A program made the position numbers and the translations under genes. This document shows, in pieces, positions 17,495-51,885 of a DNA stretch of 64,000 nucleotides; the first letter of the stretch is position 1; every line of letters begins with the position of its first letter. The stretch covers positions 12,001,390 through 12,065,389 of the forward strand of contig CM038911.1 of NCBI GenBank assembly GCA_021904315.1, written 5' to 3'. Source of the stretch: Sphagnum magellanicum. Lineage: Eukaryota; Streptophyta; Sphagnopsida; Sphagnales; Sphagnaceae. The notes under the pieces were generated by a model, which was not told where the DNA came from, ran no database searches, and saw only the letters and a program-made list of their open reading frames with translations.

Positions 17495-18040
17495 AGGCCT
17501 AAAGCTTCAAGTCACAGGTTCGGTAACAGGTTTGGATTCTAGGGTTCACAGTTTGGGGTCGATGAGCCCTGGAAAATGAAGTCACAGGTTCGGTAACAGG
17601 TTCAAATTCGAGGTTTCGGAGTTTGTTTGTGGTCGATGAGCCCTAAAACTTGAAGTCATAGGTTCAGTAACTGGCTCCAATTCTAGGGCTCAGAGTTTAC
17701 GGTCAGTAATGAGCCCTAAATCTCCAGGTCACAGGTTCGGTACTAGGTTCGAATTTTAAGGTTCAGAGTTTTTGGGTCGATAATGAGCCCGAAAATTCGA
17801 AGTCACGGGTTCGGTGGCAAGTTCGTACTTTAGGGCTCGAATTCGGGGGTCCGGAATGAGCCCTAAATTTCGAGGTCACAGGTTCGGATTTTAGGTTCGG
17901 AATTTGGGGGTCAGGAATGAGCCCTAAATCTCGAGGTCACAGGTTCGGATTTTCCGGTTCGGAATTTGGGGTCAGGAATGAGCCCTAAATCTCGAGATCA
18001 CAGGTTCGGGTTTTAGGGTTCGGAGATTCTAGGATTTGGG
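17495..18040 (+). repeat. Eight-unit 60-75-bp minisatellite just upstream of RPS2
   Basis: About eight diverged units follow one plan: A(A/G)GTCACAGGTTCGG, then a variable stretch with GGTTCGAA-like sequence, GGGGTC, then AATGAGCCCTAAAT. The array ends roughly 115 bases before the RPS2 start codon and must overlap its promoter or leader. The GGTTCGAA core resembles the B box of tRNA-type promoters, but no tRNA fold is present. Confidence 0.85.
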
Positions 18041-18156
18041 GTTTAGGGTTCCTCGAGGGAAAGACAAGGACAAAGCGCCGCAGTAGTGACACTGGGCGTT
18101 CTCCATTCTCGCCATCGCCCTCGGAAATTTTGGCGAGCTTGAAGGACTTTGGGGCC

Positions 18157-19167
18157 ATGGCGGAGCGTGGTGGAGGTGAAAGAGGAGGGGATAGAGGCGG
18201 ATTTGGCCGTGGCTTCGGCCGTGGGGACAGAGGGGGACGAGGAGATAGAGGGCGTGGTGACCGCAGAGGCGGGCGTCGAGGTCCGAAGCGTGAAGAGGAG
18301 GAGAAATGGGTGCCAGTGACGAAGCTCGGAAGACTGGTGAAGGATGGAAAGATCAAGTCCTTGGAACAGATATATCTGTTCTCTCTCCCTATCAAGGAAC
18401 ATCAGATCGTGGAGTTCTTCTTGGGTTCAGCTCTGAAGGATGAGGTCATGAAGATCATGCCTGTGCAAAAGCAGACTCGTGCGGGGCAGAGAACAAGGTT
18501 CAAAGCCTTCGTGGTGGTCGGGGACAGCAACGGCCATGTCGGTCTCGGAGTCAAGTGCAGCAAGGAAGTTGCGACTGCCATTCGAGGCGCCATAATAATG
18601 GCTAAGCTTTCCGTCATCCCTGTGCGACGAGGGTACTGGGGAAACAAAATCGGCAAGCCCCATACTGTGCCATGCAAGGTCACTGGGAAGTGCGGCTCCG
18701 TGACTGTGCGGCTTGTGCCTGCTCCAAGGGGTTCTGGTATTGTGGCTGCTCGTGTTCCAAAGAAGGTACTGCAGTTTGCTGGCATCGAGGACGTTTTTAC
18801 TTCCTCCCGTGGTTCCACTAAGACACTCGGCAACTTCGTGAAGGTTGGTTCTCTCTTTGGTTCTCTTTTTCCTCTTGCCTTTTTCCTTTTCTTTCTATCA
18901 GAAAACTCAATCTCAGGTTTTCTTGCAATTGAAGCGATGTAAGACGGGATTTTTGCTTGACTCTATTTGTGTGATAAAAAATTGTGTCCTTGTGATTTCG
19001 CACAGGCGACATTCGAATGTCTGTTGAAGACTTATGGATTCTTGACTCCCGATTTGTGGAGGGAGACACGCTTCACTCGTTCTCCATTCCAGGAATTCAC
19101 AGACTTCTTGGCGAAGCCCCATAAGATCAGTGTGTTGGAGGATGTGGAGAAAACTCCTGTCTATTAG
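18157..19167 (+). CDS. RPS2: 40S ribosomal protein S2 (uS5), cytosolic
   Basis: Two exons, 18157-18843 and 19006-19167, give 282 residues. The N-terminus is the Arg-Gly-rich tail typical of eukaryotic uS5 ([14 protein letters not shown]). The S5 RNA-binding domain follows with [40 protein letters not shown] and [19 protein letters not shown], then the S5 C-terminal domain with [18 protein letters not shown] and [14 protein letters not shown]. The protein is part of the small-subunit head/body junction near the mRNA entry site. The ATG at 18157 is chosen because it gives the family start MAERGG; the open frame upstream has no ATG. The single phase-0 intron precedes [15 protein letters not shown]. 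Conservation is near complete through the core, so this is a functional gene. Confidence 0.98.
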
Positions 19168-21277: not shown

Positions 21278-23363
21278 TCACCTATATTGGTCAGGTTGCT
21301 TGGGCTTGTTGTGCACAACACTGTCAATCTGCTTCAATACATCAGGTGTAAGCTTTGGTAATATCTCAATTGCCTTCATATTCTCAACTACCTGCCATCC
21401 CCAACCAAAAACAAAACATTGCAACAAGATAGCTTTTAGCTTCAATATTTGTGTGAGACAAGCATAGAATAATTTGACCAAGTTTTGCGTGGACCATTGG
21501 ACAAAATCTGCATCCTAAGTTTCTGTCACACTTCTGGAAGCAACAGCAAGACTCACTCAAGAGACACAGCTTACTAAAGAACTTAATAGTATCCTCATTC
21601 ACACAACAAGCTTCTGAGATTGCAGAGCAATCTCCACAAAATGTTGAAGGTCACATGATAATGGAGGTGTCACTCACTCTAGTCTCCTGCAATCCTCAAT
21701 GTGGAGGCAGTGTTTTAACCCTAATTTGGAAGTAAGAGGGCAGAAAATGTGGCGATGGGCACATGAAGTCAAGGACTACGGTATAGGAGTTAGTGTTACC
21801 TGATATTCCTTGGTAGCCCCAGTAATGACAGAGCTCACATTTGGATTCTTAGCACACCAGGCAATAGCCAGCTGTGACATGGGCACATTGAGCTCCGCAG
21901 CAATTGGCCTTAGTTTCTCCACTTTGCTCAAAACATCATCCACAAGTGACCGGTTTGCAAGACTCTGTAAACAGAAAAATAGAACCTGTTTGATTAGCCC
22001 CAATGTAATAATATCATCTCATTTATGCAGGAGATTTCATCCCTGACTTCTTTGGTAATCACTGTCCAGAGCACCCTTCCCATCTCAATATCACATTCAG
22101 AAAACGGCCACCCAACAAAGAAGAAATCACAGTTTTTCACCACCCATGAAATCCTTCAATGATGCATGAAAACATACACCCACCCACCTACCTTGTAATT
22201 CTCAAGGGCAAAACGGCTGCCTTCAGGGATATTGCCTTTACTGTATTTTCCAGAGAGCACACCAGAGGCTAAAGGACTCCAAGTGGTCAGTCCCAGACCA
22301 TAATTCTTGTAAAGAGGTGCATATTCCACTTCCACCTTCCAAACAGTCACAAACAGAATCCAATTCTTTCAGTGACACTTCATCCAACCCACTGCTGTTT
22401 GTGTAAACCAATCCTGCATCTTGAGTTTCTGCCGTTGCAAAGGAAATCCAATGCACAATTGAAAAAAATTTGTTTTTTTCCCGAAATCAACAAGAAGACT
22501 TAGTCCTGATGATGATTTTGGTTTAGCACTCAAGAGACATGGTGTGTGAGTTTCGGATACATTTACAACAAATTCTTCATGGGAGGAGAGGCAAGTAGTA
22601 GAGAAGCTGGCTAGATAGCTAGCTTGCAGATGGCATTTACCTTATCACGAGCAAGAAGATTGTACTCTGGTTGTTCCATAGCTGGTCCTATGAGATCAAG
22701 GCGATTTGCAATTTCCCAAGCTTGTGTGATTTGTTGTGCACTCCATTCACTGGTTCCCCAATAGAAAGCACATCCTTGATCTATGACCCAGTTCATGGCT
22801 CGCACTGTTTCCTCAATCGGGGTTGACACATCCGGTCGATGGCAATACAGAAGGTCCACATACTCCATGTCAAGACGCTTGAGAGAAGCCTTTCACAGTA
22901 CAAAAGTCTGAATGAGTTATATTAGAGCATCACCACCAGCGCTCAGTATATCTCCCTGCACTGGAAATCCTGGATGAGGTACATCAGTCATATCCAGTGG
23001 ATCCACTGGAAGACTACTGCGACTGAGAGAAAGAGAGAGAGTGTGTACCTTGATCCCTTCGATGATGTGTTTGCGAGAAAGGCCCTTGTCATTAGGACCT
23101 TGACCGCCCCAGAAGAGTTTTGTGGAGATGACGATGTCGGAGCGCTTCCATCCGAGCTCCTTGATGGCTGCACCCATAATCTCCTCAGCCCGGCCGTTGG
23201 CGTACACCTCGGCATTGTCAAAAAAGTTGACACCAGCTTCTCGACATCTATGGAGGAGAAGCTTGGCGTCCTTGACATCCAGCTGGTTGCCGAAGCTCAC
23301 CCATGCGCCATAGCTCAAAGCACTCACCTTCAGTCCAGTTCGCCCCAAATGACGGTACTCCAT
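21278..23363 (-). CDS. KAB1: Potassium channel beta subunit, NADPH-dependent aldo-keto reductase fold
   Basis: Five minus-strand exons (23363-23049, 22889-22641, 22335-22192, 21964-21800, 21391-21278) give 328 residues, the same length as Arabidopsis KAB1, and align along the whole chain. The AKR tetrad is visible: Asp49 and Tyr54 in [18 protein letters not shown], Lys82 in STKLFWGG and His122 in YCHRPD. Cofactor-site motifs such as [26 protein letters not shown] and [12 protein letters not shown] are intact. Family members form cytosolic tetramers that bind the N-terminus of Shaker-type channels and can modulate them by redox state. All introns are phase 0 with GT-AG ends. Intron 1 holds a fragment of the MITE family found complete at 24731. 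The gene is convergent with RPS2, and its promoter has repeated ACGT-core sites. Confidence 0.97.
22925..22970 (+). mobile_element. End fragment of a Tourist-like MITE in KAB1 intron 1
   Basis: GAGCATCACCACCAGCGCTC and the following CAGTATATCTCC match, with a few differences, the end of the complete MITE at 24731-25097. The fragment is preceded by TTA, the 3-bp target typical of PIF/Harbinger elements. No matching second end was found in the intron. Confidence 0.55.
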
Positions 23364-23788
23364 TCCTGGCTGCTCCCCGATCCAAGAATCAAACAGCTCG
23401 CACCTTTATCTCCTCCCTAGCTACTCCCCAAATACAGTAAACCAAGATCTACAGACACACGGACATCAAACACACACTCGAACGAGACTCGAACAAGACT
23501 CTTCCTCACCTCTTTTCACTGCACAAAACCGCCGAAGAACAGCTCTCTCACTACCTCAATGCTGGTGGTATATTGGAGCAATCACTTCCCTGAGAAAAAA
23601 TTCCTGCAAACTGGACTCTTAAAACAAAATCGCGTCAAGAGATTTCGAGAATAAAAACTGTTTTCCGACTTCCAATGCGCACCCAAAATCGATTCTTTTC
23701 CCGCACTCCCTCGCGGCGTCGGCCTCTCACCAGCGCGCGTGGTCGTTCAGCTTCCTCCTCTTGAACGCTGCTGGCTGGGGCCGTCAAG

Positions 23789-23999
23789 GTCCCCATTCCA
23801 GATCCCTAAATGAGGTCTGCAAACACGACTTCCGAGCAAGCGTGCTTTGTCACGTCAGGTTAACTTGGGTCAGATTCAGGTCCCCATTCCAGATCCCTAA
23901 ATGAGGTCTGCAAAGACGGCTTCAGAGCAAGTGGGTTTTGTCACGTCAGTTCAGGTTACGCTAGGTCACATTCAGGTCCCCATTCCAGATCCTGAAAAC
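23789..23999 (+). promoter_or_regulatory. Repeated ~90-bp promoter module of KAB1 with ACGT-core sites
   Basis: Two full copies and one partial copy of a module begin with CAGGTCCCCATTCCAGATCC (about 23789, 23878 and 23976). Each full copy carries TGTCACGTCAG (23848-23858 and 23939-23949), an ACGT-core site of the kind bound by plant bZIP factors. The module lies about 430-640 bases upstream of the KAB1 start codon on the minus strand. A regulatory role is inference from motif and place. Confidence 0.5.
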
Positions 24000-24730
24000 G
24001 GGTTTAATGTTTAATCGCATTTTCCAAACTCCCACTTGCATCCCTCCCTCCCTCCCCCCTCCTTGGAAATTTCAGGTCCTGAAACATTCCCCCAAAATCC
24101 AGATGCCATGATGAAGCCTGGGGTTTCTCTAAATTTCAAAATCCATTAAAATTATTGACAAATTTAGAAAAAACCCCAGGTTTAAAAAATTATTATTAAA
24201 TTAAATAATTTAAAAATAATTAAGGTTAATTAATGACTTAAACCTCATTTGTCAATTGAGGTTTGGTAATTAATAATTCCCAAAGACATGGGTTGAATTT
24301 TTATTTGGAAAAATCAATATACCTAATACATGGACTATGTGTCTAAATTTTTTTTAAAAAAAATAGAATGGTGATTTTATTGGCTTCTCCAATCATTTAT
24401 TAGATAATCCCATACTTGATTGGTGAAGCCATTTTTGTTGGCTCTTGTGTTGATAGGGGTTGGTGAGTTGTGTGGTGCATTTTGGTTGCCCTTTTAGGGT
24501 ATTCACTTTTAGGGTTATTTATTTAGGGTACTTATTCAATGGCTAAAGTGATAGCTTTAAGTCTCACCCTCCAGATGGAGATTCAGAAGATCTAATCTTC
24601 CTTGGGAAAATGAGCACAGCCAATGAAGAAATTGAGTGGGCATTTTGGGCCAACAAAGTTTTCCACATTAAAAGTATGAGCACACTCAGTGTTTAGGGGT
24701 TGTAAATTGTACCTAATATCACCCTATTAA

Positions 24731-25097
24731 GAGCATCTCCACTGGTGCTCAGTATGTCACTCTGGATAAAAAAATTAAATGTCTAAGTTTAGCTTCTTCT
24801 TTTTTTTGGGCAACCCCACCAATAAAAATGTAACCGGAACTGCATGTACGTGGGAACAACTAAGAGCAAACAACCTGGACCAATCATTATGATCGACCAA
24901 TCAGAAATACTGAGCCGCATCCAAGTCCAATTTATTACACTCTTTTTTGGAGGTGCACAACTGTGTTGCGCCATTTACCAGCCACAGCAAGCTGCACGAA
25001 TTTGGTGGAGAAAAACCAATTTCCTGAGCACATTTTGACTTTTTTACAATACATTTTACTGTCTGGAGTCAGATACTGAGCACCAATGGAGATGCTC
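24731..25097. mobile_element. Tourist/Harbinger-like MITE, 367 bp, with TAA target duplication
   Basis: Terminal inverted repeats of about 35 bases start GAGCATCTCCACTGGTGCTC (left, 24731) and, read from the other strand, GAGCATCTCCATTGGTGCTC (right, 25097). TAA flanks both ends (24728-24730 and 25098-25100), the 3-bp duplication of PIF/Harbinger elements. There is no coding capacity. Ends of this GAGCATCTCC type are common in plant Tourist-like MITEs. Confidence 0.9.
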
Positions 25098-25100
25098 TAA

Positions 25101-26899
25101 CACCAACAAAGTGCCACTTCACAACAATTTTTAACGCTATAAATTACCATCAAATCTCTTTAGCATTATTTTAGCATGCATGTCCACACCAGTGTGGGGG
25201 AGCAGGTATTTAATTTTTGTAATACCCACCAGTTAAGGGTATTTTTTAAAATTCAGAAGGAATGAACTACCAGGTCCAGGTATTTGAAACAAAAAAGGGT
25301 TCAGGTTCAAAGAATTGTCAATTCCAGGTATTTCAAAAAGCTCAAAGAACCATCGAGTTTCATGAAAGAATTGACAAAGACCCAGCAATTTTTGATTTTT
25401 GATAATCAGTGTCATGCCCATATGCATGGCCTCATACATGATGGTCAATTACGGGCATGTCAATCGTGCCTTTTAGGGTTAATGTATGTTTTTAAATTAT
25501 TGTACGCTATTAGGTGTTTTAGGGTTATGGCTTGTTTGGGGTTTCAACTTGTTGACAATTCTATAAAAGGCCAAGCTCTTCCCTTCTCTCATTAGTTTTT
25601 CTAAAATTCCTTTGTCAGGGAGAGTTTCCTCCATAGTCAAACTGGATTTCTAGATGCTCACAACAGTTATTACACAGCCATCGTTTACATACATTACGTT
25701 TTCTTTCCTTCTTTGCAATTTAATTCTAAAAAACCTATTTTCTGTCACTTAATGTTGAAAGTGGCAAATTTTTCTTGGCTTTGAGTTCTTGGGTTTTTTT
25801 TGCTGCTAGTGTTATTGCTTTCAAGCTTTTAATTATTGTGTCTTAATGTATGAGGTTGCCATTTCTGAAAAGAAGATGGGACAAACTCTTGTTATTCAAT
25901 TACATGTTCCTTTGTTGCCTTCCTTTGAACCAGCTACCTATGATTTGGACTTTTTTAATTTTTCAACATCACCATCATCCTCCTCATCGTCATCCTTCTT
26001 TTGTTTATATACTACCAGGGTCTTCACATATCCGGACTTCTTCTATGTAGCCTTGTTAATGAGCTCCATTTTTGCCCTTTGTGTCCATCCTAACAAAACC
26101 TAAAGAACTACAAGTCGTAAAGTAATCAATTTGAGGAGAACAAAGGCCATGTACTGGGGTCGAAGCAACAGCAGGAACAAAACAACAACATAGTGAGCGA
26201 GGGTTTGCTAACACAAGCGCTCAAGTGTATGTGGGAGCTTGCATCCAGTGCCGTGGCTGTTGCATGGCCGTCCGCCATCACTACAGAGCTTATGTCCAGC
26301 ACTGTGGTCGTCACTGCAAAGCTTACGTCTAGCGATATGGCCGTCGCGTCATAATAGTCATTAGTTGCCATAGTCGTCGGCTATCACATTGTCGGTTGTT
26401 ACATTGCCGGTTATTACATTGTAAGGCATCATAGTCACTAGCCATTGCAGTTGACATCCGTTCGTCCGACGTCCGTCCAACCTTGGTCCAACGTCCATTC
26501 GACCTCCAACCGACATCCATCCGACCTCCAATCAACGTCCGTCCATAGATGTCCATCTACCAATGTTCGTCCATTGCCGTTCATCCCCGTTAACGCACCG
26601 TATTCTTCAAACCATACATTGTGTTAGAACTTTATAACTAATGCTTTGTATTGCTACAAAATTTTGGGGCATGGGACAACACCATGTCCTCAGATGATGA
26701 GAGCACTACCACTTAACCAAAGCCAAGATATTGGTTACAAAGTAACACATAATTATTTAAGCTAATTTCTTTGAGCTCATGATCTTCATGACGGTACCAT
26801 CAAACATCTACAATGCCACCGTCATCTAGTATAACTCCTACCAAGAATTCAGGTTTAAGTTACACTACATCAATGGTACATCAAAGTCCATTTGGAGGG
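25101..26899. other. Spacer with LTR-like promoter stretch and a CGTCC/GACATCC repeat
   Basis: There is a TATA-like TATAAAAGG at about 25562 in a context that resembles an LTR promoter, but no matching second copy is seen in the window. Around 26440-26580 a short irregular tandem repeat is built on CCGACATCCATCCGACCTCC-like units. No host gene is recognisable. Confidence 0.5.
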
Positions 26900-29859
26900 G
26901 TTAATCAGTGGGTTACGCTTGTTGTCGCATTAGCTTTCACACCATCACCGTATATTCTGCTGTAAACCATTACTTCTACACCCATATACACCATGGAGGT
27001 CAACAGTTCCTTTGGGAAAATTGAAAAGTTCAACAAAAGGCCAAATACCATTTCTTTGAAAGAATTCAAGGCAACTTTCTCAATTGTGGTTTGTGAATTC
27101 GAGCTCAAGTATGGCGTTTAGTACACTGAGGTGTTCGTATTCAAACAACTAGCCCGTTATGTGCACTATGAAACATTGGATGTCTACAAGCAACATTCTC
27201 CGAGAATTTTGAACGTCACCCAGATCCCCAATCTAGCTTATGCCACAGCCATCACCACCACCTTTCAAACTACACTACAAGTTGCCATTGCACATCATGG
27301 GACTGTGCGCAATAATCCAAATTTGGTACCTACTTTAATAAACCTTTTTCCTCAACAAATCATTGTTACTACTACAAACATTCTTCCCACCATTAATGCA
27401 CCAGCTTTTGTTAATCCAATGAGGGAATTCTTTCGAGATCTTGAACTGGAATTTTCGATTAAAAAGTTCTGAAAAAATTCTGTAGCTCACCACCTTCTTG
27501 GCAAAAGGATGAAACCTTCAAAATGTTCTATAGGAAGCTTCTCAAGTTTAAAGAGGATACTTGGAGCATCACAGACCTGGAAGCTGCCCATCGATATCTT
27601 CGTTCGTTGGAAGGTACTCCGACACTCCATGCACATGTTTTGGAATGGGTTTCTGCAAAATTTGGAAATTCGTACACTTTGCTAGGTGTGTGCAACATTT
27701 CTGAAAAGTTGGAGCTGGCTCATGCACACTATGAGGCCAGTACTATGAGGCTTCCATCACGTTCAAGGCCTCAACCTTCATTAGCTACACCAACCAGATC
27801 ATCACATTTTTCTTCAAAGGCTAAAGTGGTGCACTTAGTTGCACCCATCCTACCTTTTTACAACTACTATGGCAATCTTACCCATAAAGCTAGTGAGTGC
27901 AACATTCCTTCCGAGGATCTCTTTTGTGATTATTGTGGGAAAGAAAGACATCATGAAGTTGTCTGTTTTGCCAAGTTCCCGAAACAAAAACAACTCTGAT
28001 TACCATGGCAAAATCTGCTAACATCTTCCGTTGCCCCTCAACTAAAAGCTAAAGCACCTCAACCTTTCGCTCAAGCTTTCCCCACCAAGGGTAATTCTAG
28101 TAAGAATGCTAAAAAGAAGGAACACAATGTTGACAAGAAGGAGTTGTTTCAAGCCCATGCTACTCAAGTTCAAATTCTACAAAATGAACTCAAATCATCG
28201 AGGGCCCAACTTGTTAATCTAAAATGTAAGTCTTCCCAACCAACTAGTCATGCCCAACCTGTATAGGGTTCATGATCAAGGCAAGGACCTCCTAGGTTGT
28301 TCTATGGCCTCTCACACGATGGCATGGTTGGGGAATATGTTTTTTCTAATGCACACAATTATAGTCTCACACCACAATTTGCCACTTCTTTCTGCCCTTC
28401 CTACTTCGCGGCACAAGAGGTTAGTGTGGCACCTATAGTTTTTACCACTAGGCAGGTAATTCAAATTGATGGACTCGCATCTGGTTCAAGTCTTATTAAC
28501 AAGGCTAGAGGATCTCGAACAATCATGCCATAATCTTTTCATCTTCTCAACACGGAAAAAGAACGCACCTTGTTGGCGAGGGGGAGGAGACTACTACACC
28601 ACAAGCTGCTAGGGCATCAAATTCTTGTGTCCCAAGAGTACATGTACATTAGGAAAACACACGATTTTCCACTAATCAGTTTATGGAATGCTAACTTCAA
28701 ATGTGTGAAGTGGTGCAAAAGCTTGTGAATACATCGTTGTTTAGTTTTCAAGATTTGAAATTAAGCACTGGGGACATAATTGCAGTACTAAAAGATACCT
28801 TAAACACTACATCAAGTCCTTTACCAATCCTTAATCCACATGCTACATGGGTCCCCAATCCTTAATCCACATGCTACAGGGGTTCCATCCAACACCTTAG
28901 AGAAACACTCGATTAGTTCATGTGATGACATTCGTGATCTAGTCACTAGTTCTAACATGGCTAAACTAGTGGGCTTTCCTACCTCTAATTTTACATTCAC
29001 ATATCAAAAGGGAGTTAAGAACACCTCACTTGTGGATTTGTTACTCAGCACAGGCGTTATGGATAGCCATTCTCTTCACAAAGTCTCTCACTCATTTCCG
29101 AAGGTGGTGCCTAGTGAAAGAACTTCCATCGCCACTAGAGTTACCATTGTCGACAATATTGAGTCAACAATCCAGGTGAGAGGACATACACCCAAAGTGG
29201 TACTTCTTGATACAGGTGCCCAACCAATGATTCTTGGAGTTTAATTCGCTAAGAAGATGGGCATGTTCGACTCCAAACTACGGAAATCTATGTGGCAAAT
29301 TCACACCCTTAGTGGGAACGTAAAGGAGGTATTTGGGGAGAATTCGGATTTGATTGCATTTAACTTCAATGGAAGTACAAATCAAGAGTTTTGCTTACAT
29401 GTCAAATGTTTAGTCACTAATGCCACTGGTTATGATGTGCTCATTGGGCAAGATGCCCTATTTCCACCAGGTTTCACAATTGACAATTGGTTCGAGCATG
29501 TGTACTATTGAGTGGATTGGGAAACTAAAAGGCACCGCTTGGGATACATACCCCTTGATTTACATGGGAACCATAGTCCTATGGCTCACCATTGTATGCT
29601 CAAAGAAGCACACACCATTTCCTACATCCAACAAAATAGCCACGAATGGATAGAAGGAGATGAAAAGGAGACAACTTATGCCCAAGCTACTAAAAGCTTG
29701 AAGGTGGTTCCTACATACATTCAACATGGACTAGAGGTTTTATAGAGGTTCAAAGCAGCCCACGAGCCCTTGTCAAAGCTTTATCTAGTTTTGAAAACAT
29801 GGAGAGCCATGGCGAACCGATTAAACTAGTACTTCATCAGTTAATCACCTGGACACCGC

Positions 29860-30830
29860 CTAAAGAAATGATCACATTACTAGAGCTCTTTGGTGGTATT
29901 GGTACAGGTCTTGAAGCCCTACTACAATTAGGGATGGTGGTTCGAAGGTATTTTTACATAGACATTGATCCTATTATAAAGCAAATGGCAGCATCAAGAA
30001 TGATGGAGCTCATAGCCAGATTTCCACAATAGTTTGCAACCACCGCATGGAAGGCCAGTTTCACTTTCTTGCCCTCTGACATACAACTAATTTAGAAGAA
30101 GCATATGGAATTACTTAGCCCCATGGACCTCATCATTTCAGGTTGGGAGTGTCAAGGATTTTCAACAGCTAGATTTGGAGAAGGCTTGAATGACACAAAA
30201 TCTAGTCTCTTCACGGACATGGTATGATTAATCATCTAGGCTCAATCCATTTTTCCTACGTTTGGTTATGTAATTGAGAACACCCATTTTTAGCTTGACT
30301 AGAGAGAAAAAGTCTAGGAACATTACATGCGGGTCAAGCATTACCTTGGAAAGCTACTCCTATTCGATGTGGCATAATGCGGTTCCTATGCGCACCGACT
30401 ACGCAACTGGTGGACCAACCTTGCACCACTTTCAATTCTCCAATTGGCTTTGAGATACACCATCAAAGACCCCAACCTATAGGTTTCTCACATATTGGAT
30501 GATCAAAGCACCTGCCAACTAGTTACAAGGCAAGAAAAACCTCCTTGGTTTCTTGCGAACATAATAGGAAAACCAAAAGGTGTTTGGCCCACCTTTGTCT
30601 CCTTCTCAGGAGCACACACCTTTTAGGAAGATGGACCAAACATGGTGTACCATCATGCTTCAACCACTTGGGATGAACCAAGCCCAAAAGAAAGAGAAAG
30701 GGCTATGGGGTTCTAAACTAGCAAAACTAATCACACCGAGGTGACTAGATTGGAGCGTAACACTCTATGGGGGAGAGGCATGGACTTGAAATCCCTTACA
30801 TGGTTGTTAGTAACTTATGTATTTTTTCAA
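29860..30830 (+). mobile_element. C5 cytosine methyltransferase domain inside the retroelement (fossil)
   Basis: Traces of the C5-methyltransferase motifs come in canonical order: motif I LELFGGIGTGLEAL (about 29880), a motif IV-like CQGFSTARFGEGL (about 30157), a motif VI-like ENTHF, an LRNWWTNLAP block like motif VIII, a motif IX-like ERERAMGF (about 30690) and a motif X-like GRGMDLKSLTWLL (about 30770). The order is not the rearranged one of plant DRM enzymes, and the WTNL block resembles DNMT3-type enzymes. From memory, cytosine methyltransferases have been reported inside gypsy-type elements of charophyte algae and in dinoflagellate retroelements; this looks like that class. It is part of a dead copy. 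Confidence 0.8.
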
Positions 30831-33800
30831 ATGTACATAACACCAACACTAATTCAATTAACTTATAGTTCTAGCGATGTGACTACATGGCACCCCGACC
30901 AAGTACACTTGCCTATTTTCAACACTTTACGTTTCACTCTTAATGTTGGGGGGAGGAAGTACCATGTAATTTGACTCGAGTTGTTTCTGATACACTTGGA
31001 GGTACATCAACTTCTAGAACAACAATTACAACCTTCCACAAATCTACATAGTTGGATAGTGAAAAACCCAATACATTAAGTTCTTCAAATGCACTTTCCA
31101 ACTCCATTCCACGTGTTTCCAACTACCGTTTCGTTATGGGGAACCAACTCACCAAGAAGGTGAAAAACCGGGTCACAGACTTGTTAACTAAGTATGAGAA
31201 TGTGTTCGCATTCTCAATGAAAAACTTAGGTAGGTGTAAAACCATGTAGTTTTTTACAGACCTTAGATGAAACACCCATCTATCGGAAGAGGCATTGGTT
31301 GAGCAATCATGAGTGGGAACCAGTAGATGAAAGATGCAAAGAGCTCCATGAGGCTAGTCTCATTTAGCCATCAAATTCTAATTTCGAAATCGCTATAATA
31401 ATGCCAGCAAATAAGGATTCAGATGGATTATAAATTGACAAAAGGATGTACAGGGATTATAGGCCTTTGAACCTGCTTACACCTCAGGACAGGTACCCCA
31501 TGCCCATCCCTGAACAACTATTTGATAGCATTAAAGTTTCAAACATCTTCGCAATTATGGATCTGAGGCAAGTCTTCAACTAGATTCTGCTCGTTACGAA
31601 GGATCGCAAGAAAACAACATTCCATGGAAGCAACAAGTTGTGGGAATGGTTTGTGATGCCTTTTGGATTGAAAAATGTACATGTCTTCTTTCAATGAGTC
31701 ATGGACCAGGTTCTCGAAAGGGTAGATTTCTTGAAGTGCTATATAGATGACATTCTAGTGCATAGCAAGGGACTCCTGTAGCATTTGGCTCATCTTGAAG
31801 AGTTATTCAAGAGGTTCCACAAAGTTAATATGAAGATCCATCCTAAAAAGTGTGAATTTGTTGTCACCTCAATAGTTTACCTTGGACATAGAATTTTGCC
31901 AAATGGTATTATGGTTCATTGGGCCAAAGTAGTAACCATTTTGGAAATGCCTAACTGTACTGATGTTCACACATTGATGAACTTCATTGGACTATGTAAT
32001 TACTAAAGGATTTATGTCTAAGACTTTAGTACTATTGCTCGTCCTCTCTATGCATTGTTAAAGAAGGATGTTGTTTGGACATGTAGTGAAGAGGCTTAGG
32101 AAGCTTTCGACACATTCAAGGAAAAGCTTTCAGAGTTCCCCATTCTGAGAAAACTTGATTTCAACAAGGTCTTCGTTCTACACACTGACTAAAATGTTCT
32201 TGGTATTAGTGCTATTTGTGACCAACTTGATGAGAAAAGCAAGGAATATGTTATCGCCTATGCATCCCAAAAGCAACTATTCTTCATACGAAAGGGAGTG
32301 TTTTGTTGTTATATGGGTCGTCATACATTTCAGGCCTTATCTTTATGGCACCAAGTTCATTTTATATACTGACCACCACCTTATGAAGTGGTTGATGACC
32401 AACAACAAACTTACTAGTAAGTTAGTTCGTTGGGTGCTTATATTTCAGGAATATGAATTCAAGGTTATTCACCGACCTAATATTACACATCAGAACGCAG
32501 ATACCATGTTGCAGAGACCCCTCATTACCTCTGAAGATTTCTTAAAAACCAAACAAGATTTCGACCAAATTCTCATAGTATATGTATCTTATGCATTTAG
32601 TTACCTTGCACTACTGTAATGTAACCTGGTTGAGCATCCCATTGTGGATATATGGGAGGACTTGGACACTCTGAGGTTTCTTTAACATGGGGAATACCCT
32701 CCCCAAGTTACACCAAGTCATTGGGATCACATACAATAGTGGTCCAAACGCTATTCATGGGGGGATAATCACCTCGTCCGATGCTTACCACGAGGTGACA
32801 AAGTGGTTCCTCCACCACATGAATGGCCTAGTCTTATTTAGAAAGTACACTCGGAGCTTGGACATTTTGGAATTAAATGTACTTATAGCATTTTTGCTCC
32901 TTATTACCATTGGAGAGGTATGTATGCTCAAGTCTAAGACATCATTGCTAGGTGTGAATAATGTGATAGAGTGAGAACTTCCTTCTCCTCTCAGCAACTC
33001 ATGTTTTCTCCACTCCCTATTTAGGGCATGTTCTATCGCTGGTCATGTGATTTAGCTAGAAAGTTACCGCAAACCTCTAGGGGTAATGTCTACATCATGA
33101 TTATGATTGAGCATTTTTCAAAGTGGGTTGAGCTTATTACGTTGTCAGACAAGTCATCACACAGCACTAGCTAGGTTTTTTTATAACAGGTCCTAAATAG
33201 GTTTGGGGCTTGTGCTGAGTGCCTTACTGATCAAGGATCGTAATTCAGAGGAAAATTCCAAGACCTACTTGACCATGCTATCATTGACCATCGTCGAACT
33301 TCAAGGGATCATCCCCAAGCTGATGGCTTTACAGAGAGGATGGTTCAAACATGTAAAGCCATCAGAAGATTGGCTTCACTAGGAACAAAGAGGATTAAGA
33401 CATGACCCTACCTTACATTGCCATGGGTTACAAGATGTCCAAACACGCCTTTTTGTCTCATTTCTTTCCTTACTTTCTACTTTTTGGGAAACATCCCATT
33501 CCACTTATTACTCAAATGGACCAAGGTGTGGACTTGAACTCCCTAGCCATTTGGGCTAGGTTCATCGCAAAAAAGGATGCTCTATTTAGGAGAGTTATGC
33601 CCATGGCCATGGAGAATTTGTCCATTGCACAACATCGAGACACCTTACGGTATGCACACACATGAAGTGGTAGTTACAAACCTAAGATGAGACAATTTGA
33701 TGTTGGTGACTTTGTGTATTTCCAACGACAACTTAATGATACTTTAAACATTTCTTTCGGTTACATTATCTCGAGGATTAAGGCGATTAGGCTTTTAGGT

Positions 33801-33924
33801 GTGTTGGAGTTGCAAGGAACAAACGAACGCACAATTCAAGATCACTCCAAAAATTGTGCACCTTGCCACTTGCCAAACTTGGATCCTACCATCATCACAT
33901 CGACTTGGATTCCTCCACTTGACT

Positions 33925-34010
33925 ATCCATGTCAAGTATGTCAAAGGACAGACAATGTTGATTAGATGTTGCTTTGTAATAATTGTAATGGTGGATACCA
34001 TCTTTTCTAC
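33925..34010 (+). mobile_element. PHD-finger-like zinc cluster at the 3' end of the retroelement (fossil)
   Basis: Downstream of the integrase traces, Cys pairs CQVC and LLCNNC followed by NGGYHLF have the spacing of a PHD finger (paired Cys, then Cys pair and His). Gypsy elements of plants often end in a chromodomain instead. The assignment rests on spacing and residues only, in a decayed copy. Confidence 0.55.
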
Positions 34011-34060
34011 CTCAAATTGAAGCTCATTCAAATTCTCGTCAGCATTTGGTACTATTCATC

Positions 34061-36544
34061 ATGTTCTCCTACAACACCTTGATTTTTACTTAGACCATGC
34101 CATTTTTTCCTGGCTCATGTTTGGGGGCGATAAATGAAAATTTCATCTCAAACTCCTCTTGTGCATTGTATATATGTGTGCATGCATCTTTTTTTGGTTG
34201 ATTAGTTTCTACCTTTGACTGGTTTTAATCTTTTTGTTTAGTAGAGTTTACTATGGATTTACACCCTTATGACATCATATGTCACAACACTACACGTCAC
34301 AACACCAAGGTTATATATCAAAACTAGGTATTTGAATTTTTTTTGTTGGATAATCCCGATTTCCAAACTTGATACCTGGCTTAATATTCGGTGAGAGTTT
34401 GGCATCATTTCTAATACCCACCCCACTCTCATCCACATATGATGATGCTAAGTGATAACTAACATTGAACATTGATTTATATTCTTGAAGGTTGCAATCC
34501 CGTCCACACATACAAAGTAATGTTTTCTCCTTTGTACTCTTCCATGTGATTGTGATTACTTTTCCTCATTATTGCCTCTTTTCATAGGTTTTTTTTTTTG
34601 GTCTTTTTTTCTCTTATTGTTTGTGTTTTTTTCTTTTTTTCCCTCATTGTTAGGTCTTCTTCTCTCTCATTGTATTGCTTTTGAATTTTTTTTTGTCTTT
34701 TTTCAAAGACAATTTGTTTTTTTGTCAAATTTCAGTGTAATCTTTGTGTTTTCTCTTCACTATAAGTTTAGGTTTTGTGCTCTTTTGAGCATAGATATGT
34801 TAAAAAAATGTTCATTTTTTTTTCCTTTTTTCTTTTATCTTTTAAAAAAAAATTCAATGCAATCTTTGTGGAGAAAGGAGAGGCAAGAAGAGGAGTGGAT
34901 AAACCACAAGGATGAAAGAGAAAGAAAAGGTGAGAAAAGGGGGAGGGAAATACAAAGATTTTTTTAAAAAAAATGAAATGAGGATAAACACTTTTGAATG
35001 CATGTTAATATTAAATTATTTTGTCATTTTTTTAATACTTTAGTTAACATTGGTGTTTGATTCTAAAAATAATAATTTAAATTTTTTAAATATCAGTTAA
35101 CAATTGAAGTTAATATTTTTTTTAAATCAATGTCACATCATTTGTTGCCTTGGATTTAGTGTTAGTTAACATTGTAAATAAGGATTGGTGTTTAATTTTA
35201 AATTCCTTAACATTAAGCTTAACATTCAAATCAACACTAAATGTGGTCACTTCTTAACATTTTCATATTATACACAATAAAGTTATTTGTAAAGTGACCA
35301 TGGGTTTCACCCTCTTATTCATTCCTATTCATTTCTCATGCCTTGTTATTTGGTGTTTGGAAAGGTATTGGGAACTCAAGGGAAAAAGTGAAAAAATAGG
35401 GTAAAAAAAACCCGATTTTTGAAGTGAGAGAATTCATAGCCCATTTAGAGGATGCAAAACTATGCTTTGTAAGGCTACCTCTAAAAATACACTACAAATT
35501 TTCTCATAGATCTTTACAACCCAATGGATGGGTGGATGGATGGATGAAAGACCATGATCTTTCACCACCATCTCCTCGTGAAGATGAAGATGTGTACATG
35601 TGGGGGTGACTATTTGGAGTGTGGAAAATTGGGGTTTAGGGTTTAGGTTATTTTGGAGTGCAAAAAATGGGGTTTAGGGTTTAGGGGTTGCAGGCTCATT
35701 TGGGTAGAGCAGGAGATGATCAGAGTGATGGGCCCCCACATGGTCCAATTCTCAGTTACTGAGGTATGACCATTCAAAGGAGACCCATGTGAATATCCCA
35801 ACTACAAAGAAGTTGGTCCAGCCCCAAGAAATTGTTGGTCTTTTTCTGCAACATATAACTTGGGGCTCTGTGTTGCTTTGCATTACCACTGATGATGATC
35901 AAGTATGAGTAAGGTTGTTAGGTTTTTGTATGATCCTTGACATTCCAACTGGCTGGAATTGTCAATTCTTTAGAAGAAAGGGCAAAAAGACAATTATATT
36001 ACTATTGATTCAGTCCAGGAATAAAACATACTTGCAAATTGACATGACCAATCTTCTCACCTTCCCATGATCCATCCATTTATTGACTCTGCCTGTAAAG
36101 GGTGAGAGAATTGCATTTTGTGAGTACCCTGCATCATGCATCTCCAATATTACAGCTGCTATGAATGATGATGATGATGATGATCCTTGGGGTGATTCAG
36201 AGTCTCAAAAACACAACAGTGAGAAGCCCACTTTGTCCACAGAATGGTGGAACAAGAATATAAGCACCTAGATAAGTTCCCGTTCCAGGTCCAGTTCCAG
36301 TTTCTTCCACCTCAATTCATCATGTTCAACAAGACCATGTACAGATGCAAAGAGAGACCAAGCAAGATGAAAAGAGATAGAAAAATCTCAGTACCAGCAG
36401 CACTGCGCAAATGTGAATCCTGCTCAAAATTACCATCCTCCTGACCTCAGTATCTACATCCTCATAATTGTTGGAGAAAAAAGCCTGCTTGCAAGCCAAA
36501 GTTGCATGCACAGTGGGAGAAGATCAAAAGTTGTTCAAAATTTG
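34061..36544. other. Spacer and likely 3' UTR of the ABCC gene
   Basis: 34560-34860 is a T/C-rich low-complexity stretch. 34980-35280 is AT-rich with repeated TTAACATT motifs. Around 35630-35690 telomere-like GGGGTTTAGGGTTTAGG occurs twice. The part nearest 36544 is probably the 3' UTR of the minus-strand ABCC gene. No separate gene is supported. Confidence 0.55.
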
Positions 36545-43773
<7,229 letters not shown>

Positions 43774-45402
43774 GGTGGTGGTGGTGCTGCTGCTGCTCTT
43801 GTTGAATTTACCACAAAATGTCTGTCAAACTTGCAAACCCACATGAAAGAAAAAACACCAACACAACCTTCTCTCCTCTACTGACCCACTAAAACCTCTT
43901 TCCCTCCTTCATCAAACTCCTTTTGGATGCATGTTTCGTATCAGAAGCTGGATTCTATAGATATTGCTCTGAATGCCATCAATCTGATGAAGAACAAAAA
44001 GCCAACTCTTCTGTTGCATGGAAGCCCATCTGATTACATCACCATCCATCTGATCACATCAGCTTCCATGAAGCAGAGACTTACAGGAATGCTGGTATAT
44101 GCAAAGCATGGTTTGTTGCAACTGCTGCAACAATTGTTGTCGCCCCACCAGCACCACCAACAATGCCCCTCCCAGTCAGTCAATCATGGTTGCTTTGCTT
44201 GCGTCAAAACAATTACAGAAACCTGTGAACAAATCATCCCCAAAGAAGCAACAACTCTTTGTCGAATACCCAATCTTAAAAACTCTTTTGGGTGGTGCCT
44301 CCTCCATGAATCCCAAATCAAACAAAACTCTTGAACCGATGCCTTTGTCGATGATTGCTTTCAAAAACAATCCAGAATTTGCACCCAAAAAGAAAAAAGA
44401 AAAAAAACCCACCACTGATGAATTGACCAAACCTCTTGGTCTGGTGTCTTGTTGATTGCTTCAAAACAATCCAGAAATTCATGAAAAAAATAATTCTTGG
44501 TCTACACCTTGCCTGCTTGCTGAACAAAGCAATACAGGATTTGTGAAGTCCGAAACTGAAAACAGAATTGGTGGGTATGTCACGGATGAGCAACAGCAGC
44601 AGCAGCAGCACATATGGGTGGGTGTGGTGGGGCTTGAGGAGAAGGGTTTTCTTTTTCTCTGCTGCAGCAACTACTGGTGTTTTTGTTTGTTTACTGGAGG
44701 AGGATAGCAGGCAAAACTCTTGTTCTTCTTCCTCTGGTTTTGCTCAGCTGAGGAGGAGCATCCAAGACTTGTTCCCAGCAGCAGCAGCAGCCCACAAGCC
44801 ATTGCAAGGTAGGAAGGGAGAGAGTGTGAGCGAGTAGAGAAGCAGGAAGAAGAAGAAGACAAAAAAAAAGATGCTCATCTTATGCTTGCTGCTGTTGACA
44901 CCATTGCAAAAGGAATGCAGAAGAAAGCAAAGCAATAATAATGCAACCAAATTAGAACACAAACAGAAACAGCAAGACACCCAACTGCTCCAAACCATTA
45001 ATTCATGTCCCTTTTCTGTTGTTTCTGGCCCTCTTTTTGTATGTTGTTGCTGCTGTGTCCTCCTTCAAAAGTTTTCCAATAATTTACAGCTGAGAATCAT
45101 GAAACCAAAGGGAGGGGGGGGGAGTCCCACACTGTGTTGTATCATGCACGAAGCTTTTGGAGAGAGAGAGAAGAATGGGTGGGAGCATAGTGCCACCCAT
45201 CAATGTTTCTGACAATCCAGCATCTTTCGCTGAAATTCTTCTGGAGGAAAGGAAAAGAGAAAACCTTGCAACCCTAAAACCTTGCAACCCTAGAGAGAGA
45301 AATCAATCAATCCTTGGGTCCCAAGCCATCCATCATGTATGTAGCCACCAAATAATAATAATAATTTTTATTTTATTTTAATATTTTTTTATTAATTTAA
45401 TT
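43774..45402. other. Upstream region of the ABCC gene, rich in CAG/CTG tracts
   Basis: The first several hundred bases before the ABCC start should hold its promoter and 5' UTR on the minus strand. Short (CAG)n tracts lie near 44590-44610 and 44778-44792. Long open frames here are by-products of these triplet tracts on both strands. No other gene is supported. Confidence 0.5.
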
Positions 45403-50945: not shown

Positions 50946-51885
50946 GGGTTTGGCTAACGCAACACACCTTGATGATAGAAAAACACCTTCTAGCATTTCC
51001 CATGCACTTCCCATGCAACAGTAATGGAGATGCCGCAGCAAAAATATGACGGCTAATAAAGCAAACTTAAATATCAACAACAAGTAGTGTTCACACTGGT
51101 ATGGCGACCTGTTTTTTACAGCACTTCTACAGCTTCGCATGCCGGGCTTTCTTTCTCTCCAATTACACCTTTAGCATCGCCCCAAATGTCATCACATACA
51201 CAGTAGGCATAGGCGCAACAGGCACAGGCACAGGCAAAGCTGATACAATAGCAACAACAGGATGATGACTTGTTTGTTCTCGGTATAGGCGAGCCTGACG
51301 ACCTGCTTGAGCGGATTGAACCCCCTTCAGAGGCTCCAATATGGCCTTCTCTTGCAGCAGCTATGGCAGATCTGAACACTTTCACAGGTCCTAATGGATG
51401 GGCACTTACTTCATTTCGCACAAAGAAGAAGAAAGATGAGGTTGTCAGGGTGTTTCTGCACTGTGACCGAGGTGGTACATACAGATCTCGTGTCAATGAC
51501 GATTTCCGCCGCTGTGGGACCGCCAGTCGCCAAGTTGGATGCCCATTTGATGCAGTCCTTCGCCACTTCGTTGCTTTTGGTGGTTGGAAACTGCGTATTT
51601 GCAACGCTGATCATAATCATGGTCCAGCACCCCCGATCACGCATCCTTCGCTGCGGAGAGCAGCTATGAAGGAGCACAATGACGAGATCAGAGTAGAGGC
51701 TCGTACGGGGTTGCAGAGTACGAAGATCATGAAGAGGCTAAGGGAATAGGACCCAGACATACCCATCCTTACCCGTGATATCCTCAACGATCGCCAACAT
51801 CAATGGATCAAGTTTCTAGTAGGTCGTACGCCGATCTAAGAAGGTGTGTTTTCTATCATCGAGGTGTGTTGCGTTAGCCAGACCC
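50946..51885 (+). mobile_element. 940-bp Mutator-like element with FAR1-type domain, 8-bp target duplication
   Basis: Inverted repeats of about 45 bases begin GGGTTTGGCTAACGCAACAC (left) and GGGTCTGGCTAACGCAACAC (right, other strand). Both continue ACC(T)(T/C)GATGATAGAAAA. The direct duplication TTGAATTA lies at 50938-50945 and 51886-51893. Inside is a plus-strand FAR1/MULE-like zinc-binding domain without a catalytic part. The element is inserted in the 2.49-kb TIR element. Confidence 0.92.
51252..51839 (+). pseudogene. FAR1/MULE-type DNA-binding domain, truncated transposase
   Basis: The frame opens at 51252 after an acceptor-like AACAACAG and reads through LLERIEPPSEAPIWPSL, GWALTSFRTKKKK, FLHCDRGGTYRSR, a Cys pair (RRCGTASRQVGCPF), WKLRICNADHNH and MKRLRE. 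This is the N-terminal zinc-binding (FAR1, WRKY-GCM1-like) domain of Mutator-type transposases. A TAG stop follows at 51747-51749. In the same frame DPDIPILTRDILNDRQ and FLVGRTPI continue the family pattern to a second stop near the right repeat. The catalytic DDE domain is missing, so the copy is non-autonomous. The first exon or start codon is not clear. Confidence 0.75.

Follow-up and report, generated by a model that had tools for sequence, protein, structure and literature searches.

We found that positions 25410-34304 (+) of the window, the 64,000-nucleotide stretch of the Sphagnum magellanicum genome analyzed here, are a single full-length, decayed Ty3/gypsy-type element. Within it, a protease is followed on the same strand by a DNMT3-type C5-methyltransferase (MT), a reverse transcriptase (RT), RNase H, a DDE integrase and a PHD finger. 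Judging from its sequence, it is likely to be an old Ty3/gypsy-type insertion that carried DNMT3 between protease and RT and PHD at the integrase C-terminus, as putative writer and reader of chromatin marks.

Domain order and decay of the window copy

An earlier note on this DNA had described these six domains in this order on one strand. To confirm this order, the frames of the window were scanned with Pfam, reading stop codons as X, and the window was scanned a second time with HMMs built from relatives of the element (protease, MT, RT, RNase H, integrase and PHD). Both scans recovered the order, including the C5-methylase that the note had expected within 29860-30830 (Table 1). Pfam matches to DNA_methylase (frame 29601-30950), RVT_1, RT_RNaseH, Integrase_H2C2, rve and PHD (33870-34100) were each above their cut-offs, whereas the gag-asp protease match at 28804-29600 reached 25 bits against a curated cut-off of 28.2, and the gag-like region matched zf-CCHC_5 at E 0.19 only. 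Across the 64-kb window, the relatives' HMMs gave no further matches outside the six domains of the element. Furthermore, the element extends beyond 26900-34060, and both ends were defined from sibling copies.

Table 1. Features of the Ty3/gypsy-type element, in positions of the window.
Feature	Position	Strand	Evidence
Left flank TCAG, perhaps a decayed target duplication	25406..25409	no strand	weak; right flank CCAA at 34305-34308
A repeat, left end, starts TGTC	25410..25726	+	73% identity to A repeat of sibling L014
Leader, A repeat to gag start	25727..26992	+	between A and ATG at 26993; siblings with leader after A
Gag-like region, CCHC-like Cys/His cluster at ~27925-27988	26993..28800	+	N-terminus resembles protein P0003 by eye
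Aspartic protease	29122..29523	+	family HMM 179 bits; Pfam gag-asp_proteas 2.7e-5, below cut-off
DNMT3-type C5-cytosine methyltransferase	29865..30812	+	Pfam PF00145 1.1e-6; HMM 378 bits; best solved match DNMT3A
Reverse transcriptase, frame shared with methyltransferase	31326..31889	+	RVT_1 2.7e-23; HMM 224 bits
RNase H, divided between two frames	32172..32490	+	RT_RNaseH 8.7e-18; family HMM
Integrase, H2C2 zinc finger and DDE core, frame change near end	32800..33473	+	Integrase_H2C2 4.2e-13, rve 3.4e-10; HMM 265 bits (32800-33438)
PHD finger, after integrase C-terminal region	33924..34067	+	PF00628 1.7e-6; HMM 42 bits
B repeat, right end, terminates GTCACAACA	34130..34304	+	83-86% to B of five siblings

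As the note had also recognized, the window copy is a fossil, an old insertion that has decayed since. The MT frame (29601-30950) contains 14 in-frame stops, HMM coordinates place frame changes between protease and MT, within RNase H and within integrase, and the PHD finger keeps 6 of 8 zinc ligands, two ligand Cys being gone. When the stop-free pieces of the window were searched alone, without the X reading, Pfam returned no DNA_methylase or PHD match. The B repeat terminates with GTCACAACA in the window copy and with GTCACGACA in the majority of siblings, and the flanks TCAG and CCAA agree at 2 of 4 bases, both mismatches being transitions.

The observed/expected ratio of CpG is 0.38 in the element and 0.21-0.56 in tiles of the window; that of CAG/CTG is 0.53, compared with 0.46-0.51 in tiles away from the element. 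Depletion of either as a mark of the element was rejected, as other tiles have like values.

Sibling copies and split direct repeats

Twenty sibling copies, chosen for long open MT frames, were fetched whole from the genome at 10 kb each. All of them have the domain order of the window copy and, like it, the protease, RT, RNase H, integrase order of Ty3/gypsy elements (Metaviridae); three contain no stop and run in a single frame through all six domains. Genome-wide, 124 MT matches were counted, and 51 of them are followed on their own strand by a PHD match at a downstream distance of 3.0-6.5 kb, versus 0/124 at the mirrored upstream distance and a random mean of 0.085. This count scored 150 of 875 PHD candidates, and the 124 MT matches include at least four to host genes. 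These results bear out the proposal of a lineage, present at other loci in the same order, in which gypsy parts were combined with a DNA methyltransferase and a PHD.

Median Ka/Ks among copies was 0.24 for MT, 0.34 for RT, 0.23 for integrase and 0.10 for PHD, the last being rough because it comes from only 46 codons with an odd median Ks (0.36 vs ~0.1 elsewhere). Both MT and PHD are under purifying selection in element copies.

The siblings end in TGTC..GACA, which conforms to the 5'-TG..CA-3' termini of Ty3/gypsy elements, and 7 of the 8 siblings with both edges read are flanked by exact 4-bp target duplications, within the 4-6 bp of that group; the eighth agrees at 3 of 4 bases. Two full terminal LTRs, as in Ty3/gypsy elements, were not found, and the repeats are split and direct. 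At the 3' end, main-subfamily copies carry B-A-B in 9/18 cases and a single B in the other 9/18, and a distant copy (L024) also carries B-A-B. A left A repeat, whole or cut, was seen in 10/18 main-subfamily copies, and the left end of most others lies outside the fetched sequence. The siblings thus explain why direct comparison detected no LTRs around the window copy, since its form is A-coding-B without a terminal repeat. DIRS-type elements (see de Mendoza et al., PMC5890265) share the split arrangement A-coding-B-A-B but use a tyrosine recombinase and lack target duplications, whereas the Sphagnum family has an rve/H2C2 DDE integrase and 4-bp duplications. The element demonstrates that a DDE integrase can be combined with split direct repeats.

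Methyltransferase, PHD finger and relatives

The MT motifs occur in canonical, non-rearranged order and are nearest to DNMT3. Against solved structures, the MT profile scored 85 bits with DNMT3A, 47 with DRM, 38 with HhaI and 26 with DNMT2, and neither DNMT1 nor CMT was among the 58 matches. Likewise, DNMT3 entries made up all of the 50 top-ranked structural matches listed for a predicted model of P0001. The motif IV Cys is kept in 56/61 MT rows and the motif VI Glu in 58/61; the residue preceding the catalytic Cys is Glu in 32/61 and Pro in 23/61, the window copy having ECQ. Three MTs (P0078, P0115 and P0121, of which two are from volvocine algae) keep the rest of the domain although their catalytic residues fail to align, and for 7 of the 31 RT rows in one clade of relatives (type B, see below) no MT was detected in the source protein; catalysis is therefore not always needed.

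C4HC3 zinc ligands are present in 116/120 PHD rows of relatives. All 120 rows have Gly or Ala at the alignment position that we take to be that of the H3K4me3-cage Trp. The nearest solved PHDs are those of CHD4, WSTF, KDM5, KMT2, ATXR5 and BAZ2, several of which are presumably readers of unmodified H3K4 and not of the H3K4me3 class; the ligand predicted from this resemblance is that of a sequence class only. A scan of 5 long relatives at E 0.01 found no chromodomain at the integrase C-terminus, where the PHD takes its place. Fourteen proteins found with an MT-only query combine MT with a full integrase; in 4 of them, including P0185 of Closterium, no PHD was recognized.

Besides peat moss, relatives were found in liverworts, Closterium and chlorophytes. 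Their MT lies either before RT (type A, PR-MT-RT) or between RNase H and integrase (type B, RH-MT-IN), and PHD occurs in both types. In the MT tree, for which DNMT3A was the sole outside row, type B forms one clade (SH-aLRT 98) and the root given by the single long DNMT3A branch falls inside type A. The midpoint-rooted RT tree has a similar split (96/95 and 100/95). Placement of the Sphagnum type varies: it falls beside type B in this DNMT3A-rooted MT tree (81) and inside type A in a separate tree (97). The trees fit a single relocation of MT within pol. No Klebsormidium protein is among the named relatives listed, and none of 33 pattern matches in viral contigs was confirmed.

Possible roles, rival explanations and known systems

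We propose that the integrase PHD would bind histone H3 at its N-terminal tail, probably when H3K4 is unmethylated, and would by analogy tether the integration complex to such chromatin from the place that the chromodomain holds in chromoviruses. The DNMT3 domain would methylate the element's own cDNA or new insertion de novo, and a new copy would thereby bear a mark of silent or self DNA from the moment it enters. The combination suggests that such elements come equipped to mark chromatin themselves.

The methylase piece could also be imagined as a host pseudogene neighbored by a retroelement, and the decay of the single window copy is the sole point in favor of this. We reject this reading, to which we assign a vanishing probability, because the order is common to other loci: MT sits at the identical pol position in 20/20 siblings, MT and RT lie within one protein in several cases (P0002, P0055, P0164, P0165), and host DRM-like genes sit at other loci and differ in appearance from the element MT. 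It is also unlikely that MT and PHD were kept for structural or nucleic-acid-binding roles, such as Gag-Pol assembly or RT template binding, and not for marks. The three MTs without catalytic residues, and Glu before the catalytic Cys in about half of the rows, agree with such roles, but the catalytic Cys and Glu persist in nearly all rows, the zinc ligands in nearly all PHDs, and both domains are under purifying selection.

Since PHD fingers are diverse, this one might direct integration to active chromatin (H3K4me3) or bind no histone; we regard this as improbable given that none of the 120 rows has Trp at the presumed cage position and that the nearest solved relatives presumably fall outside the H3K4me3 class. 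Two distinct insertion points in pol could reflect two separate DNMT3 captures, before RT in the elements of streptophytes and between RNase H and integrase in those of chlorophytes. The single RH-MT-IN clade, the DNMT3A root within the other type (on one long outgroup branch), the similar split of the midpoint-rooted RT tree and the PHD in both types make two captures quite unlikely.

Volvocine algae have little cytosine methylation. A broader account, possible though tentative, is that a clade of gypsy-type elements with split repeats, spread across the green lineage, brought DNMT3 and PHD together a single time, before the split of streptophytes and chlorophytes, that PHD steers integration to H3K4-unmethylated chromatin while DNMT3 methylates the newcomer, and that the enzyme decays first in hosts with little cytosine methylation. 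If true, this would be a retroelement with a self-contained read-and-write silencing kit. A methyl-CpG-binding domain is reportedly carried by an arthropod retrotransposon (work of De Mendoza, 2019).

The earlier note had pointed to methyltransferases captured by gypsy-type elements in charophytes, correctly so: KnitGypsy-Dnmt3 of Klebsormidium nitens, which de Mendoza et al. described in 2018 (PMC5890265), is the closest published relative of the Sphagnum element when compared by description, not by sequence. Like it, KnitGypsy-Dnmt3 has a non-rearranged DNMT3 inside gypsy Pol, DIRS-like repeats and purifying selection on the DNMT; a yeast test was inconclusive. In contrast, PHD has 0 occurrences in the main text of that paper, which presents the gene as acquired independently by the K. 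nitens lineage, whereas our relatives span bryophytes, Closterium and chlorophytes and have a PHD. SymbioDIRS-Dnmt3 and SymbioLINE-Dnmt, described in the same text (PMC5890265), are also retroelements with a DNMT, but rely on tyrosine-recombinase or LINE machinery in place of a DDE integrase with 4-bp target duplications. Chromoviruses, Ty3/gypsy elements whose integrase bears a chromodomain (Neumann 2019, PMC6317226), likewise place a chromatin reader at the integrase C-terminus, where the Sphagnum element has PHD instead; the words PHD and methyltransferase are absent from the main text of that survey.

DNMT3 in gypsy Pol is thus known, while its pairing with PHD and the breadth of its distribution may be new. 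Neither the pairing nor the taxonomic range was found in the open-access literature searched, consistent with the note's impression that the pairing may be undescribed. Where a single alga had been reported to have captured a de novo DNA methyltransferase, there is now a widespread, probably old element lineage of green algae, liverworts and peat moss, whose integrase adds a likely reader of chromatin to this writer. It thereby becomes testable why a transposon carries an enzyme of the type by which transposons are silenced. A caution for annotation is that some plant gene models with DNMT3 or PHD, ones from Sphagnum and Marchantia among them, are fragments of such elements.

Decayed and open copies in the Sphagnum magellanicum genome

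The element copy in the window (C5:12001390-12065389 of the 439-Mb genome) was searched with Pfam as single-frame pieces, with stops read as X, and all domains were found on the + strand. HMMs built from relatives located protease (PR), C5-methyltransferase (MT), reverse transcriptase (RT), RNase H (RH), integrase (IN) and PHD finger, and gave no further matches outside this copy when the whole 64 kb was scanned. MT and RT share the same reading frame. The copy is dead, because the frame 29601-30950 contains 14 stops and the PHD has lost two of its zinc-ligand Cys. Eleven of the 14 stops could be aligned to the related protein P0002, and all 11 lie opposite Gln or Trp, the pattern expected under C-to-T decay. 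A 31-nt tandem duplication lies inside the element at 28824-28885.

Coordinates of features in the window
Feature	Position	Strand	Basis
A repeat of window copy	25410-25726	+	
gag-asp protease	28804-29600	+	Pfam E 2.7e-5, below curated cut-off
C5 DNA_methylase	29601-30950	+	Pfam E 1.1e-6
RVT_1	next after DNA_methylase	+	Pfam E 2.7e-23
RNase H	next after RVT_1	+	Pfam E 8.7e-18
Integrase H2C2, then integrase core	after RNase H	+	Pfam E 4.2e-13; 3.4e-10
PHD finger	33870-34100	+	Pfam E 1.7e-6
PR	29122-29523	+	HMM from relatives
MT	29865-30812	+	HMM from relatives
RT	31326-31889	+	HMM from relatives
RH	32172-32490	+	HMM from relatives
IN	32800-33473	+	HMM from relatives
PHD	33924-34067	+	HMM from relatives
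Host-like, presumably ribosomal protein S2	17989-18942	+	reading frame
Host-like, presumably aldo-keto reductase	22917-23405	-	reading frame
Host-like, presumably ABC transporter	38470-43824	-	reading frame
Host-like, presumably FAR1-type protein	51252-51749	+	reading frame

Scanning the genome with PF00145 gave at least 124 matches (387 candidates, 123 scored). Among them, named by eye, are three DRM-like host genes (C17:13029985, C15:12757090 and C6:13160109) and one DNMT1-like gene (C3:13555280). PF00628 returned at least 150 matches (150 of 875 candidates scored). At least 51 of the 124 MT matches were followed on their own strand, at a distance of 3.0-6.5 kb, by a PHD match, and none of the 124 had one at the mirrored upstream distance, with a mean of 0.085 pairings expected under random placement. 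All 20 sibling copies fetched, which were picked for long open frames, showed the order PR-MT-RT-RH-IN-PHD. Three of them ran through the six domains without stop or frame change; open copies therefore exist. Median Ka/Ks among copies was 0.24 for MT, 0.34 for RT, 0.23 for IN, 0.33 for RH and 0.40 for PR (137-154 non-independent pairs per domain, including, except for RH, one pair within the second subfamily), and 0.10 for the 46 codons of the PHD, whose median Ks (0.36) departs from the ~0.1 of other domains. The second subfamily comprises L023 and L024, whose MT Ks against the first subfamily is saturated.

Element ends, repeats and surroundings

Sibling copies start with TGTC and end with GACA. 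Exact 4-bp target duplications were found in seven of the eight siblings with both edges read (L009, L010, L013, L014, L015, L018 and L024), and three of four bases were equal in L017; a shuffled control for the first seven siblings gave a mean of 0.13 exact matches. Among 18 main-subfamily copies, the right end is B-A-B in nine and a single B in nine (A and B being the split direct repeats), and a whole or partial left A occurs in at least 10, the left ends of most others lying outside the fetched sequence. The B-A junction is the palindrome GACAGCTGTC in six of eight printed copies, has one base altered in the other two, and recurs in the distant copy L024. Some insertions look young, given the identity of A1 to A2 (99% in L009 and L014, 98.6% in L024, 96.7% in the partial L025) and of B1 to B2 (95-100% in eight copies, 90% in L028). 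The short, single-B form probably arose by recombination between both B repeats. The window copy has one B only, ending at 34304, and its flanks, TCAG and CCAA, agree at two of four bases.

Directly left of the element, an inverted repeat at 24730-25098 (53-nt arms, 79% complementary, 263 nt apart) is perhaps a MITE, and short direct repeats of 53-72-nt families lie at 23758-23997. As in the element, CAG/CTG is depleted in tiles starting at 1, 10726 and 46476 (o/e 0.46-0.51 in these tiles), which may be other decayed transposons.

Relatives and history of the methyltransferase

Three protein searches yielded at least 194 related proteins from bryophytes (S. magellanicum, S. fallax, Calypogeia fissa, Marchantia polymorpha) and algae (Closterium, Cymbomonas, Haematococcus, Pleodorina, Volvox), most others being metagenome proteins. 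The search with a PHD-spanning query contributed the best 120 of 148 matches, and the MT query gave 58 matches among the 7995 best candidates scored. Among the matches listed, a PHD was recognised in 63 of 67 proteins with MT and full integrase. Of the other four, P0169 and P0193 show by eye a divergent cluster of Cys residues, P0177 stops too soon to judge, and no PHD or Cys cluster was seen in Closterium P0185. Of the 58 MT-query matches alone, 14 combine MT with a full integrase, and a PHD was recognised in 10 of the 14, a fairer count because one search behind the 63 of 67 used the PHD-spanning query. Public gene models from Sphagnum, Calypogeia, Marchantia and Cymbomonas (P0011, P0042, P0160-P0162, P0183) resemble pieces of MT-PHD elements; one is annotated as a methyl-CpG-binding protein and another apparently as a DNA methyltransferase. 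Equal-sized source contigs (8955 for P0144/P0030, 6232 for P0006/P0039) suggest that some elements encode gag-PR-MT and RT-RH-IN-PHD as two adjoining open frames.

MT precedes RT in the window copy, bryophytes and Closterium (type A) and lies between RNase H and integrase in chlorophytes and metagenomes (type B), the call resting for many proteins on a single neighbouring domain. In an MT tree of 98 rows including the window copy (31 rows with short MT left out), type B forms one clade (51 rows, one of undetermined type; SH-aLRT 98), and the root set by the sole, long-branched outgroup DNMT3A falls inside type A. The placement of the Sphagnum type differs between trees: it lies within type A in a smaller MT tree (97) and next to type B in the 98-row tree (81). 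A midpoint-rooted RT tree (56 rows) groups type A with RT-first proteins (96/95) and type B with seven MT-less rows (100/95), while P0181 and P0193, both of type A, and P0038, which lacks an MT, fall in neither group; the seven MT-less rows, seven of 31 type B RT rows, from proteins without detected MT, include P0064, P0067 and P0089. The simplest reading of this distribution is a single MT capture followed by one relocation, and that each architecture captured its MT separately seems unlikely to us.

The element resembles a Klebsormidium gypsy element with DNMT3 in Pol and repeats arranged as in DIRS (De Mendoza 2018, PMC5890265), the same combination as here; however, the term PHD is absent from the main text of that paper. 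A 2025 DNMT survey citing it speaks of DNMT3s carried by Copia and DIRS elements (PMC12344493), and the main text of a plant LTR survey mentions neither PHD nor methyltransferase (PMC6317226). Within titles, abstracts and main-text passages of the openly accessible literature, we found no report of DNMT and PHD paired in a retroelement.

Predicted roles of the PHD finger and methyltransferase

By sequence and predicted structure, the MT (METHYLTRANSFERASE) is classed as DNMT3-type. A profile of eight relatives scored highest against DNMT3A (85 bits), then DNMT3C/3B, DRM (47), HhaI (38) and DNMT2 (26), and DNMT1 and CMT were absent from its 58 solved-structure matches. The best 50 structural matches listed for an AlphaFold model of the relative P0001 (mean pLDDT 66, ~90 across the N-terminal half of the catalytic domain) were all DNMT3 entries.

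Of 120 PHDs from relatives, 116 have the full C4HC3 pattern; P0053, P0055 and the shortened sequences P0011 and P0117 do not. Gly (113) or Ala (seven) occupies what we take to be the aromatic-cage Trp site of H3K4me3 readers. The nearest solved structures by sequence are the PHDs of CHD4, WSTF, KDM5, KMT2, ATXR5 and BAZ2, several of which bind unmodified H3K4. From its sequence class, the predicted ligand of the element PHD is unmodified H3K4.

Architecture, copy number, selection and ends make up the established part of our account. Chromodomains are thought to tether chromovirus integration, and by analogy the integrase PHD would tether integration to H3K4me0 chromatin, while the MT may methylate element cDNA or the new insertion. 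The catalytic Cys is retained in 56 of 61 MT rows (three of the remaining five being gaps) and the catalytic Glu in 58. The residue preceding the Cys, usually Pro, is Glu in 32 rows and Pro in 23, and this Glu occurs in both types. P0078 (Pleodorina), P0115 and P0121 (Volvox) retain the MT domain, yet neither catalytic residue aligns; volvocine algae are the source of two of these three. The MT-less and catalytically dead lineages indicate that MT catalysis is dispensable in some hosts.
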